Assembly (NCBI RefSeq): GCF_018437265.1
Contig: NZ_JAAMFL010000001.1
Span: 62,001-126,000 of the forward strand
Source of the DNA: Fructobacillus parabroussonetiae
GTDB lineage: Bacteria; Bacillota; Bacilli; Lactobacillales; Lactobacillaceae
Reading direction: 5' to 3'
Length of the DNA: 64,000 nucleotides
The translations under genes were made by a program, and so were the position numbers. Below the pieces are notes generated by a model. The model ran no database searches, was not told the DNA's origin, and was given only the letters and a program-made list of their open reading frames with translations. Of the stretch, positions 28,370 to 54,852 are shown piece by piece (position 1 is the first letter of the stretch; each line of letters starts with the position of its first letter).

Positions 28370-28381
28370 ATAGTTATTGAA

Positions 28382-28650
28382 GCGATGAAGAGATAAGTAA
28401 AAAGAGTGGACAGCTCAGAGAGCCGGTGTTTGGTGAGAACCGGCCTGTCAGTATTTTGAAAATGGTCTTGGAGCTTTTGTTGGGGTGAGCCTTTGTGAGC
28501 CCTGGCCGGGAATCGCCCGTTATAGCGAAGGCTTTTCCAACGAATTGGAGAAGTTAATGAGGGTGTTTTCGCAAGGAAACGCCAAACACACCAGGTGGTA
28601 ACGCGAACTTTCGTCCCGGGTAGGTCTTTTGACCTATCCGGGTTTTTATT
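28382..28650 (+). promoter_or_regulatory. T-box leader, probably methionine-specific
   Basis: The distal stem I element AGAGAGCCGGTGTTTGGTGAGAACCGGC-like is present (28418-28444). So is the T-box sequence AGGTGGTAACGCG (28593-28605). The terminator pairs CCCGGGTAGGTC (28615-28626) with GACCTATCCGGG (28631-28642), followed by T residues. The likely specifier is ATG at 28462-28464 after GAAA, suggesting uncharged tRNA-Met as the signal. It controls the following SAM-hydrolase and ECF genes. Confidence 0.88.
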
Positions 28651-51464: not shown

Positions 51465-52364
51465 TTAGTTAATCGATGCCGCACCCGTTTGATAGTTAAT
51501 CGAAACACCGGGTTGCACGTTGAAAATCCAGTAATTGAGGTTCAGGCTGGCACCGTTATCCTCAACGGATTTGGCCATGTAATGAACACCGCGCGGTACA
51601 AGCTCGTTGCCCGCATACACCGGGGTTACTTGGCCTCGGATAGTGATGCCGGGATGTTCTTTGATTGCGTAGCGAATGTCGTCTTCTGGAACGAGCTGAC
51701 CAGGATAGGCGTTTTCAACACGGGTTCCAGTGGTCATGTTTTCGGTCACCATCGTGGCCATCCCAAAGAACTGGTAGCCGACAATGTGGGACTTGTTCCA
51801 GAGTGATTGCTTACTTCCACCAAGCGTGACTTTGGGGTTGTTATGAGAACCGCCAACCCAAGCATGGCCATTAAAGCTGTCACCCTGATTCCATCCGGAG
51901 GGGCGAACGCTCTTTGGGATTTGACTGGGGCGTTTGGTGACTTGGTTCATCGACTGTTTTGAGGCAAGGAAGTTGGCTTGACCGGAACGACCCAGGCTGT
52001 CCAGTGGTGAAAGGGCGAGGCCGTTAACGGGATTTAACTTGCTGCCGTCCGCCGGGAATGTTTGCTTTAATTCCTCATCTGAAAAAGTCGCTTGGTTCTG
52101 ATTCAAATGAACCAGGTCGCCATCCAATGTGCCATCCCATTTGATGGCTAAGAGTGCTTGATCGGATGCCGATGTTGCCGTTACGTTCGAGGAGCGGTTG
52201 GCTTTTTTGGCCGATTGCAAGACGGTGCTTTGCTTTTGCCCCTCAGGCTTTTGATTTGATTGATTTTGCTTTTGGAAAGTTTGAAAGGCAAAAACCGCCA
52301 CTAAGGCAATAACCATGGTGACGGTTTGTGTCAAACGCTTTTGATTTGCTTTTTTCTTGGCCAT
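51465..52364 (-). CDS. Membrane-anchored DNA/RNA non-specific endonuclease
   Basis: A 299-residue protein with a basic N-terminus, a membrane anchor (about 13-30), a Gln/Ser-rich linker and an external beta-beta-alpha-metal nuclease domain. The catalytic motif is WNKSHIVGYQF, the lactobacillar variant of DRGH, followed by ENMTTGTRVENAYPGQ with the metal-binding Asn. Such enzymes degrade extracellular DNA and act in DNA entry or nutrient recovery. It is the last gene of the ABC transporter operon, with its ATG touching the ATPase stop. Confidence 0.85.
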   Translation of the reverse strand: MAKKKANQKRLTQTVTMVIALVAVFAFQTFQKQNQSNQKPEGQKQSTVLQSAKKANRSSNVTATSASDQALLAIKWDGTLDGDLVHLNQNQATFSDEELKQTFPADGSKLNPVNGLALSPLDSLGRSGQANFLASKQSMNQVTKRPSQIPKSVRPSGWNQGDSFNGHAWVGGSHNNPKVTLGGSKQSLWNKSHIVGYQFFGMATMVTENMTTGTRVENAYPGQLVPEDDIRYAIKEHPGITIRGQVTPVYAGNELVPRGVHYMAKSVEDNGASLNLNYWIFNVQPGVSINYQTGAASIN

Positions 52365-53098
52365 TAGAAAGACATTGCTCCCAAGAACTTTTTAATTCGT
52401 GTTTCCGTCGAGTGGAAGAAGCCGTCGGTTGGTCCTTGGTAGCCAACTGAACCATTGTCAATAAAGACGATTTGATCGGCGACCTGTTCGGCAAAGGACA
52501 TGTTGTGCGTGACAATAATCATCGACGTGTTCTTTTGGGCCAAGTCCTTTAGGACGCGGAGTACCTGGGCCTCTAATTCTGGATCGAGGGCAGAGGTTGG
52601 TTCATCCAAGAGTAAGTACTTGGGTTCCATGGCCAAAGCCCGTAGAATGGCGACGCGTTGCTGCTGACCACCCGAAAGTTGGTAAGGATAGCGATTCTTT
52701 AGCTCCGTCATACCAAACTGCTCTAAAAGTTCTTGGGCTTTTTTTTCAGCGGCTGCTTTTGACTTCTTTTGAACCTTAATGGGCCCTTCCGTCAGGTTTT
52801 TCAAAACCGTTAGATGGGTGAAGAGCGCCTTTTCTTGGAAGACCATGGCGGTCTTTTGACGGATTTGTAAAATCTGATTATTCGTCAATGGGTTGGCCAA
52901 ATCCAAATGAAGGTCATCGATGGTCAACAGACCGCTATTGGGGCGTTCCAAGAGGTTCAGCGCCTGGAGTAAGGTTGACTTACCAGATCCAGAGGGGCCG
53001 ACAATGGCCGTTGTCTCTTCGGCAGGAAAGTCTAATGAGATGTCGTCCAAGGCGATTTTGTCAGGGTAGTGCTTACTGAGATTTTTAACTTGAATCAT
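52364..53098 (-). CDS. Polar amino acid ABC transporter ATPase, probable cystine importer
   Basis: A 244-residue GlnQ/TcyC-type ATPase. Walker A is GPSGSGKST (34-42), signature LSGGQQQR and Walker B LLLDEPTSALDPE, with the His switch VTHNM. It powers the permease encoded upstream in the operon, overlapping it by four bases. The cysteine-codon leader ahead of the operon suggests L-cystine or cysteine as substrate; without it the substrate would be undetermined. Confidence 0.9.
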   Translation of the reverse strand: MIQVKNLSKHYPDKIALDDISLDFPAEETTAIVGPSGSGKSTLLQALNLLERPNSGLLTIDDLHLDLANPLTNNQILQIRQKTAMVFQEKALFTHLTVLKNLTEGPIKVQKKSKAAAEKKAQELLEQFGMTELKNRYPYQLSGGQQQRVAILRALAMEPKYLLLDEPTSALDPELEAQVLRVLKDLAQKNTSMIIVTHNMSFAEQVADQIVFIDNGSVGYQGPTDGFFHSTETRIKKFLGAMSF

Positions 53099-53793
53099 TG
53101 GGCAAACCTCGATGTGTACTTCTCTAAGTAGTGCTGACCGATTGATAGAATGGACGTGAAGAAGGCGTAGACCATGGCGACCAAAATGTACATCGACAAG
53201 ACCTTATAATTGGCGGCAGCGATTTGCTGGGACAAGTAGAAGATTTCGACAATGGTGATGACGGAGGCCAGTGACGTATCCTTCAACAAACCGATTAATG
53301 AATTGGACAGGGGTGGAATTGAAATCCGGGCCGCCTGTGGTAAGACAACGTTCAAGTAAACTTGGCCCCGTGTCATGCCAAGTGATTCGGCTGCCTGCTT
53401 TTGCACTTCGGGAACGGATGAAATCGATGCACGAATCGTTTCGGAAGCGTAAGCGCCGGTGTTCAATGAAAAGACTGTAATCGCTGATACCCAAGCCGAC
53501 TGGAAGAGGGCGATGTGGGCGTTTGGTAGACCGTAAAAGACGATGAAAAGCTGTACAATCAACGGTGTTGAACGGAAGAACCAGACGTAGGCGTTGGCAA
53601 TCCATTTAATAATCTGTAAGAAGGCGGCCGCCCATTCGTTTTGCGGTAATTTTGCCACTCGAATTAAAGCCGTCAGTGAGGCAAAAATCAATCCGAAAAA
53701 GAAGGAAATGGCCGTCAGGGGCAAGGTGTATTTGAGTGCTGCGCTGAATAGTTCGGGCAGGTATTTGACTGCCAGGTTGAAAAAGTCTGTCAT
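53095..53793 (-). CDS. Polar amino acid ABC transporter permease
   Basis: A 232-residue HisM/TcyB-type permease with about five membrane helices. The EAA loop that contacts the ATPase is ESLGMTRGQVYLNVVLPQA. RSTPLIVQLFIVFYGLP is the family N-terminal signature. It is the second gene of the operon, between the binding protein and ATPase. Confidence 0.92.
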   Translation of the reverse strand: MTDFFNLAVKYLPELFSAALKYTLPLTAISFFFGLIFASLTALIRVAKLPQNEWAAAFLQIIKWIANAYVWFFRSTPLIVQLFIVFYGLPNAHIALFQSAWVSAITVFSLNTGAYASETIRASISSVPEVQKQAAESLGMTRGQVYLNVVLPQAARISIPPLSNSLIGLLKDTSLASVITIVEIFYLSQQIAAANYKVLSMYILVAMVYAFFTSILSIGQHYLEKYTSRFAQ

Positions 53794-53825: not shown

Positions 53826-54620
53826 TTATTCCTTTGTCAGGTCTTGGTTGAAGTACTTCTTAGACAACTTCGTTAATGTGCCGTCTTCGCGAAGTTCCTT
53901 CATGGCCTTGTTGACCATTTCTTGTAGCTTCTTGTTATCCTTGTTCATCAAGACACCATCTGGTGTTGAACCCATTGCCTTTGACACATCAACGGCTTCC
54001 ACGTCGGCATCGGGGTTGGATTGCTTCCAGTTTTCAAAGGCGCCTAGATCGTTTAAGGAACCATCGGCACGGTTGGTTGTCACGAGGTTCATCGCCTCGA
54101 TAATACCAGCAACCGCCTTGATGTTGGCTCCTTCGGCCTTGGCTCGCTTACCGTAGTTTGACGTAACGGATTGGGCCATTGTCTTGCCCTTGATGTCGGA
54201 CAATTGGTTCATTGAGCTATCACCGGTCTTCTTAATCAAAGCCGCCCTTGGGTAAAGGTAGGCGGAAGACATCCGGTAGTTGGCCTTTCGTTCATCGGTA
54301 ATACCAATGTTGTTAATGACGGCATCGTAACGCTTGGAGTTCAAGCCGGCAATCAAGGAATCCCACTTTGATTGGACGAAGTTGACTTTCATGTCCATTT
54401 TCTTGGCCAATGCTCGGGCGATTTCAACTTCAAATCCAGTTAACTGACCCTTGTCATCGTGATAGGAGAAGGGAGCGTAGGTTCCCTCTAATCCAACCGT
54501 GAAAGTTCCGGACTTAATCGTTGTGCTTTCTTTGTTTGATGATGTGAGCTGGCTAATGCCAAAAACGGCTGCGATGACCACCAACAAGCCGGCGATAATA
54601 ATGGTAATTTTCTTATTCAT
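53826..54620 (-). CDS. Amino acid ABC transporter substrate-binding protein
   Basis: A 264-residue periplasmic-binding-type protein. An N-terminal hydrophobic segment (about 4-23) lacks a lipobox cysteine, so it probably stays as a membrane anchor. The ligand domain has FTVGLEGTYAPFSYHDDKGQLTGFEVEIA, typical of cystine/polar amino acid binders, and NNIGITDERK. I chose ATG 54620 (MNKKITII), with AGGAGAG upstream; an upstream in-frame ATG lies in the terminator. It is the first structural gene after the leader attenuator. Confidence 0.9.
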   Translation of the reverse strand: MNKKITIIIAGLLVVIAAVFGISQLTSSNKESTTIKSGTFTVGLEGTYAPFSYHDDKGQLTGFEVEIARALAKKMDMKVNFVQSKWDSLIAGLNSKRYDAVINNIGITDERKANYRMSSAYLYPRAALIKKTGDSSMNQLSDIKGKTMAQSVTSNYGKRAKAEGANIKAVAGIIEAMNLVTTNRADGSLNDLGAFENWKQSNPDADVEAVDVSKAMGSTPDGVLMNKDNKKLQEMVNKAMKELREDGTLTKLSKKYFNQDLTKE

Positions 54621-54648: not shown

Positions 54649-54703
54649 AAAAGACCACCCCCAAACAAGACGGAATTGTCTTGTTTGCATTGGGTGGTCT
54701 TTT
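54649..54703 (-). terminator. Attenuator terminator of the cystine transporter operon
   Basis: On the minus strand AAAAGACCACCC pairs with GGGTGGTCTTTT (12 bp) and the inner CAAACAAGAC with GTCTTGTTTG (10 bp), followed by CTTTTT. The 5' arm CCACCC can alternatively pair with GGGTGG (54716-54721), which overlaps the leader peptide stop codon. This gives a terminator/antiterminator switch. Confidence 0.9.
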
Positions 54704-54720
54704 AGCCTATAAACGCCACC

Positions 54721-54795
54721 CTAAAAAAGCGGTGCGCAACAGCAAACCGTTTGAGTCTTCATGTTCTGTCGGTTGTAAGGTGCAGGTACGTTCAT
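54721..54795 (-). CDS. Leader peptide with three consecutive cysteine codons
   Basis: A 24-codon ORF that starts MNVPAPYNRQ and ends TVCCCAPLF, then TAG. The Cys codons are TGC TGT TGC (54736-54744). It has the strong ribosome binding site AAAAGGAGAG, seven bases from ATG, and a consensus promoter just upstream. It is followed by the attenuator terminator. If charged tRNA-Cys is scarce, a ribosome stalled at the Cys codons leaves GGGTGG at the stop codon free to form the antiterminator. If it is plentiful, the ribosome covers that site and the terminator forms. The peptide itself probably has no other role. Confidence 0.88.
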   Translation of the reverse strand: MNVPAPYNRQNMKTQTVCCCAPLF

Positions 54796-54823
54796 AGTTA
54801 CTCTCCTTTTTTAATCTGCTTTT

Positions 54824-54852
54824 AGTTTACCGGTACGTAATTTTTTTGTCAA
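54824..54852 (-). promoter_or_regulatory. Promoter of the cystine transporter operon
   Basis: On the minus strand TTGACA (54852-54847), exactly 17 bases, TAAACT (54829-54824). Transcription would start near 54817, just before the leader peptide ribosome binding site. Confidence 0.85.

Follow-up and report, generated by a model that had tools for sequence, protein, structure and literature searches.

A probable cysteine-codon attenuator of a cystine-type transporter operon in Fructobacillus and related leaders in Lactobacillaceae

How might a Fructobacillus cell match the output of a transporter operon to its supply of cysteine? The question is raised by a short open reading frame (ORF) with three adjacent Cys codons, which lies between a promoter and a terminator in front of such an operon, on the minus strand of the analysed window (64,000 nt of Fructobacillus parabroussonetiae DNA; all positions are those of the window). 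Our analysis favors the reading that transcription of a cystine ABC transporter operon is attenuated here through the ribosome in a cysteine-specific manner, a reading to which we give a probability of about 0.86.

The operon encodes a substrate-binding protein of the SBP_bac_3 type (53826–54620), a permease (53095–53793) and an ATP-binding protein (52364–53098), all on the minus strand. In profile searches the top NCBIfam models were of the cystine type for the binding protein, a cystine permease and TcyN, respectively, each match lying under its curated cut-off. The best solved relative of the binding protein is 2yln (E 3.5e-56), which we take to be the Neisseria cystine receptor. Judged by these matches, the operon is a probable cystine-uptake ABC transporter, and the assignment of cystine/cysteine made in the original prediction fits, though with all three models below their cut-offs. 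The transporter is present in all 13 Fructobacillus genomes compared (the window's genome, which is 93% complete, and 12 others). By comparison, a cysteine synthase over the model cut-off was found in none of the 13, with weak matches in eight, so that uptake of cystine or cysteine should matter in this genus. At the far end of the operon, a gene for a protein with a DNA/RNA non-specific endonuclease domain (51465–52364) shares a single base with the end of the ATPase gene and may belong to the same operon.

Upstream of these genes, TTGACA (54852–54847) and TAAACT (54829–54824) form a sigma-70-type promoter with a spacer of 17 nt (54824–54852, minus strand). A promoter had been predicted at this place and is there, but the word 'consensus' was generous, because the two boxes match at 10 of 12 positions and the –10 element by itself at 4 of 6. 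TTGACA, the identical spacing and TACACT or TAAACT recur before all 13 Fructobacillus leaders. Further 3’, the ribosome binding site AAGGAG (54808–54803) precedes an ATG at 54795, with which a leader ORF of 24 codons begins (MNVPAPYNRQNMKTQTVCCCAPLF, then TAG; 54721–54795, minus strand). The locus has in this way the short leader ORF with a ribosome binding site expected of an attenuator, and both the strong ribosome site and the Cys codons TGC TGT TGC were found as predicted. These proposed regulatory codons are codons 18–20 (54736–54744). Among 54 window ORFs that do not overlap and have 150 codons or more, Cys accounts for 49 of 17,057 residues (0.29%) and CC does not occur, so that CCC in an ORF of 24 codons is far from chance; at this Cys frequency a CCC run in 23 codons is expected with a probability of about 5e-7. 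As a separate observation, the start-codon region CTATGAACG (54789–54797) can pair with CGTTTATAG (54707–54715), just 3’ of GGGTGG. This pairing is part of the minimum-energy fold and can be drawn by eye in the seven CCC leaders, not in the other Fructobacillus leaders, and it might mask the leader start codon.

The leader is followed by a two-part intrinsic terminator (54649–54703, minus strand) with 12 + 10 pairs, the 22 pairs predicted, a folding energy of –31.2 kcal/mol and the T-rich tail CTTTTTGA after it; an intrinsic terminator consequently stands between the leader and the first gene. GGGTGG (region 2, 54721–54716) includes the final base of the stop codon TAG and forms the 5’ half of the antiterminator. 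Its complement CCACCC (region 3, 54692–54697) lies in the 5’ arm of the terminator and has two possible partners, region 2 in the antiterminator and a GGGTGG of the terminator 3’ arm, which confirms the complementarity described earlier. When the leader RNA was folded together with its terminator, none of 200 shuffles did as well (z –5.1), most of this effect being due to the terminator; the antiterminator fold alone reaches z –1.6, with 15 of 200 shuffles as good, and is insignificant by itself. The original prediction missed a hairpin around the Cys codons, P1 (CGGU...ACCG; 54730–54749; –8.4 kcal/mol), and the T6 run directly after it (54723–54728), as well as other layouts and kindred leaders before cysteine-biosynthesis operons. 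P1 and the T6 run, which is broken in one Fructobacillus leader (L002, TTATTT), may act together as a first terminator or as a pause site.

According to the mechanism that we propose, RNA polymerase would start just after the promoter, and a ribosome would load on the leader ORF. With ample Cys-tRNA, the ribosome would pass the Cys codons, reach the stop codon and cover GGGTGG, leaving the CCACCC arm free to form the terminator. With scarce Cys-tRNA, it would stall at TGC TGT TGC and open P1, and GGGTGG would pair with CCACCC; the terminator would then be blocked and the transporter made.

Comparison of the 13 Fructobacillus leaders (class A) revealed that the ribosome binding site, in-frame Cys, the hairpin and the terminator are all kept in 13/13, and no terminator is weaker than –15.8 kcal/mol. 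Codons for the amino acid of the operon, as assigned from best models below their cut-offs, are conserved in all 13: seven leaders have CCC, four a single Cys, F. ficulneus two separate Cys and ESL0958 CC. The peptide otherwise drifts between species except at Cys and at its end. The original prediction had named loss of the Cys codons from loci that keep the terminator as the outcome speaking against it; instead, Cys is kept in 13/13 Fructobacillus leaders, and a Cys leader is present in all but one of the 17 top matches from outside the genus. Two leader types deserve mention here. A single Cys codon, as in the four Fructobacillus leaders, is in the classical view a weak sensor. In ESL0958 the stop codon follows immediately after the Cys codons, pairing reaches a weak –7.2, and stalled and stop states come out equal in the model.

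ESL0958 does not align and was excluded from the column comparison, which covers 12 rows, 11 of them distinct. The single well-varying column of the antiterminator is paired in 12/12 rows with three pair types (U-A in seven, U-G in four, C-G in one), and the terminator shifts at the same column from A-U to G-C in step, so that both helices of region 3 stay paired. Of the other five antiterminator columns, three are invariant and two have one unpaired row each. Conservation of both alternative pairings with covariation, which had been put forward as a check, was borne out at this sole well-varying column, and support for a covarying antiterminator that excludes the terminator is moderate. For P1, the covariation score is 0.263 as compared with 0.108 in shuffles (0/500 as high; best slid control 0.206). 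Pairs with two-sided changes were reached in 97/500 shuffles and further pair types in 34/500, and two of the nine P1 pairs are mostly unpaired. Swapping regions 2 and 3 between class A species gave no preference for the own pair (–13.8 vs –13.5).

Leaders of the orthologous transporter operon in other Lactobacillaceae form class B, found in groups g6, g16, g39, part of g18 and one g29 genome. Among the 17 best non-genus matches (L043–L059), all except L059 carry a Cys leader; these 16 make up the 17 class B rows together with L118, which was chosen by eye from 60 more distant loci and has no visible ribosome binding site; L047 and others among the matches lie on the reverse strand. In a typical leader of this class (MLKLQAVIAYCSNRRIV), P1 comes directly after the first Cys, which is codon 11 in 15 of the 17 rows and codon 13 in L043 and L044. 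The class B P1 (for example ACCGG..CCGGT) has a covariation score of 0.390 vs 0.237 in shuffles (0/500 as high; best slid control 0.098), with two-sided-change pairs reached in 225/500 shuffles and further pair types in 117/500, these being two of five measures. As the alternative structure, the P1 5’ arm and loop can pair with the terminator 5’ arm in a long hairpin of –13 to –24 kcal/mol. The terminator is strong in 16/17 rows; L047 keeps its Cys leader and has a deletion relative to L049, its terminator reaching –4.3 vs –19.7 kcal/mol. Region swaps between class B species gave a mean of –17.8 for own and –14.3 for swapped pairs, a difference that is not independent of ancestry. A covariance model of this P1, run over 397 family genomes, returned 17 strong matches (E up to 1.7e-4), all at this operon and one per genome, and 14 weak matches (E at least 0.004), of which the one read (L172) lies inside a coding sequence and is a chance match.

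A Cys leader is not general to cystine-type transporters of Lactobacillaceae, an idea that we rejected. Among the 60 more distant loci, scanned over 330 nt before the binding protein gene, a Cys leader with a terminator was accepted in three (L096, L100 and L118); Cys ORFs beside terminators in seven further loci (L062, L067, L073, L079, L085, L086 and L105) were judged to be chance, with no ribosome binding site, the wrong order, an overlap with coding sequence or a T-box. L125 (G292) has no Cys leader. The Cys-rich leaders of L096 and L100 (MTKYCCSMSMCQMQNNEQDQTICRS and MMNLITNLECCYVSENRHAICDHIM, both with terminators) come from two further genera and show still different layouts. Another pattern was seen in g18, where a binding-protein homologue stands behind leaders of other kinds with Cys at the end or within (L130–L134, L136–L141, L143, L147, L149, L151 and L152), such as MKTLMNRC, MALGMRC, MNFRMRC, MRKVCNC and MVTFYHKSRRCLKNNLTGCCC, several of these ORFs having been read by eye. 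A terminator was not found in the nine of these genomes that were scanned (as L077, L081, L082, L066, L068, L075, L108, L113 and kin), and such leaders are perhaps a translational or Rho-type Cys switch.

Similar leaders also precede cysteine-biosynthesis operons (class C), for one of which expression data have been published. In an RNA-seq study of Lacticaseibacillus paracasei FAM18149 from 2018 (PMC6004538), the cysK2-ctl1-cysE2 operon was expressed about 8-fold more strongly when cysteine was withheld than when methionine was, the log2 changes lying between –2.9 and –3.2 for Met-deficient vs Cys-deficient medium. The available portion of that paper describes high coverage of the 5’UTR and a terminator palindrome, credits the palindrome motif to Liu 2012 and reports that a T-box or S-box was not identified there (PMC6004538). 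We found the palindrome in 9/397 family genomes, with a Cys-rich leader ORF upstream at 8/9 loci. On plasmid pFAM18149.25 (NZ_CP017266.1), the leader MMSQSMFNAINCCCRTTRFWRCSAC and the palindrome stand before the cysteine synthase gene, and this ORF is missing from the displayed gene table. The Cys leader ORF is also unmentioned in the available portion of PMC6004538, in the main text of which 'leader peptide' and 'attenuat' occur 0 times. This ORF could be the missing sensor of the cysK2-ctl1-cysE2 operon. DNA akin to the FAM18149 locus was found in 33 plasmid records, 32 of them from Lacticaseibacillus. In these 32 and in L194 to L196, the operon and its leader are plasmid-borne, and most of the plasmids are typed as mobilizable or conjugative, so that operon and attenuator can be transferred together.

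A covariance model of the class C hairpin matches in 43/301 family genomes from 11/40 genera. We read the best 30 loci and two more; all 32 in-family loci have a Cys leader and a terminator, most with CCC or CC and five with CFC, and the first Cys is mostly at codons 11–14. The downstream gene is by eye cysK-like at 27 of these loci and cystathionine-lyase-like at five. The hairpin covaries with a score of 0.320 as compared with 0.132 in shuffles (0/500 as high; best slid control 0.173), two-sided-change pairs being reached in 84/500 shuffles and further pair types in 11/500. In an order-wide search of 295 genomes, the hairpin model gave three matches (L227, L228 and L231) in two genomes outside the family; at the first two, which were read, no Cys leader lies near the match.

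Folding was compared across the three classes. The P1 covariation score exceeds every slid control in classes A, B and C. Dinucleotide shuffles fold less well than the stretch that runs from just past the Cys codons to the terminator 5’ arm, for which the mean z is –2.2 in class A (12 rows), –3.3 in class B (17 rows) and –4.6 in class C (27 of 36 rows tested). When ribosome positions were modeled, the stalled state exceeded the stop state in 12/12 aligned class A leaders (ESL0958 being equal), in 15/17 of class B (L127 lower, L129 equal) and in 35/36 of class C. With the intervening stretch shuffled as a control, 12/12 class A rows lie above the shuffled mean, five of them at ≤0.05 and the window leader at 0.25, as compared with 4/17 in class B and 26/36 in class C, one of the latter at ≤0.05; class A thus stands out modestly, class C weakly and class B not at all. 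Because the control marks the modeled difference between states as mostly trivial outside class A, we gave it no weight. Equilibrium folding indicates that the class A antiterminator also forms without a ribosome, so that something else must stop transcription in that state, a situation on which the original prediction was silent. P1 with its T6 run is the candidate: our guess is that, with no ribosome on the leader, this hairpin and its tail may end transcription first. The same job could be done in classes B and C by P1, which there overlaps the strand of the antiterminator.

Other explanations of the leader start from the same features. The RNA might be a T-box riboswitch, perhaps a degenerate one, that binds tRNA-Cys, with AGGGTGGCG as a T-box-like element and TGC as the specifier. 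AGGGUGG indeed resembles the consensus UaGGGUGGUACCGCG, and UGGC would mismatch the U73 end of tRNA-Cys. The leader RNA, of about 170 nt, has no visible stem I with a specifier loop, and the Rfam T-box model, even with relaxed limits, matches at window position 28376 and not at the leader. Since the ribosome binding site, the reading frame and the Cys codons are also kept in 13/13 Fructobacillus leaders, we hold a T-box to be hardly credible at this locus, notwithstanding a Cys T-box in L. paracasei that precedes an amino-acid ABC transporter operon (PMC6004538, available portion). Two T-boxes were seen elsewhere: the window match is a T-box leader on the plus strand (28376–28621), and L085 (249–510, g29) has one before a homologous binding protein, whose UGGU and AUG specifier, as read, suggest methionine rather than cysteine. 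That the RNA instead binds cysteine or a kindred metabolite as an aptamer, the ORF being incidental, would agree with the conserved hairpins and terminator. It is scarcely plausible given that hairpin sequences differ between the classes while in-frame Cys is kept, and Rfam searches of the leader gave no match to any known RNA family.

The conserved ORF and its good ribosome binding site would also suit a small Cys-rich protein with a function of its own, such as metal or thiol handling, behind which the terminator sets a fixed level. The peptide, however, varies except at Cys and at its end, the surroundings of the Cys codons take part in covarying RNA structure, two partners exist for the terminator arm, and a response to cysteine is reported for the class C operon (PMC6004538, available portion), which together make this reading very improbable. 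Somewhat more room, within what is still a distinctly unlikely explanation, is left for a nascent leader peptide that arrests the ribosome on a ligand (cysteine, cystine, a metal or an oxidant) in place of a wait for Cys-tRNA. Several leaders have a single Cys codon, and the first Cys is codon 11 in most class B rows and near it in class C, as would suit a role for peptide length. In arrest peptides several residues are usually conserved, whereas the class A and B peptides vary widely apart from Cys, and the CCC of seven Fructobacillus leaders argues for codon counting. Attenuation through Cys codons accordingly remains our preferred reading.

Like attenuators of the trp/his/leu/ilv type, the window locus has a leader ORF with codons for the amino acid of its operon and an antiterminator and a terminator that share one arm. 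It differs from them in the amino acid, which is cysteine, in its Bacillota host and in the operon, which encodes a transporter; in Fructobacillus, moreover, a hairpin with T6 behind it encloses the Cys codons, and the stop codon is where the antiterminator begins. Mycobacterial Cys leaders reportedly are, going by a title of Canestrari from 2020, cysteine-responsive attenuators with leaderless ORFs. The Cys leaders known so far come from Actinobacteria, and a Cys run near the leader stop before cysteine genes is common to them and the window locus. In Actinobacteria (Mycobacterium, Propionibacterium and Bifidobacterium), such Cys codon runs lie near the stop of a short ORF, and for mycobacteria the available portion of the study notes no conserved terminator hairpin and suggests a Rho-dependent mechanism (PMC1262725). 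By comparison, the leaders described here have an intrinsic terminator, strong at the window locus, a competing pairing and mostly a ribosome binding site. The Cys/Met T-boxes of lactobacilli likewise end transcription prematurely in response to charged tRNA, as the window locus would; they bind the tRNA directly and need no translation, and a T-box was not found at the window locus. The cysK2-ctl1-cysE2 palindrome, for its part, is the terminator of the class C leader of FAM18149, before an operon that is up without cysteine (PMC6004538); what differs is the Cys leader ORF upstream of it, which the available portion of that paper does not mention.

Control of cysteine and methionine genes in lactobacilli has been credited to T-boxes and to motifs lacking a known sensor (PMC6004538, available portion). 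Among the matches listed in a search of the open-access literature, which leaves most subscription papers outside, no title or beginning of an abstract reports a Cys-codon leader in Lactobacillaceae, in agreement with the original description of the mechanism as new or little known in this family. We consider it fairly probable that Cys-codon attenuation is a main, unrecognised form of cysteine control in Lactobacillaceae, that it occurs in at least three layouts and that it explains the orphan 5’UTR termination of the L. paracasei cysK2 operon. The three layouts within this reading would be the Fructobacillus transporter with a possible double terminator, the transporter leaders of other genera, and the cysK and lyase operons, some of them plasmid-borne; their shared logic would consist of Cys codons, a hairpin and a terminator.

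In Bacillota, an attenuator that reads Cys codons and acts through an intrinsic terminator would be an additional type of sensor. Through it, cystine/cysteine is assigned to the transporter of a genus in which no cysteine synthase exceeds the model cut-off, and the L. paracasei cysK2-ctl1-cysE2 operon, which is linked to sulfur flavour in cheese, gains a concrete sensor candidate. The natural variants, with one, two or three Cys codons and differing hairpin layouts, allow the minimum needs of an attenuator to be tested. Related bacteria with the same design before their cysteine genes probably sense a shortage of cysteine through the movement of a ribosome along a short gene.
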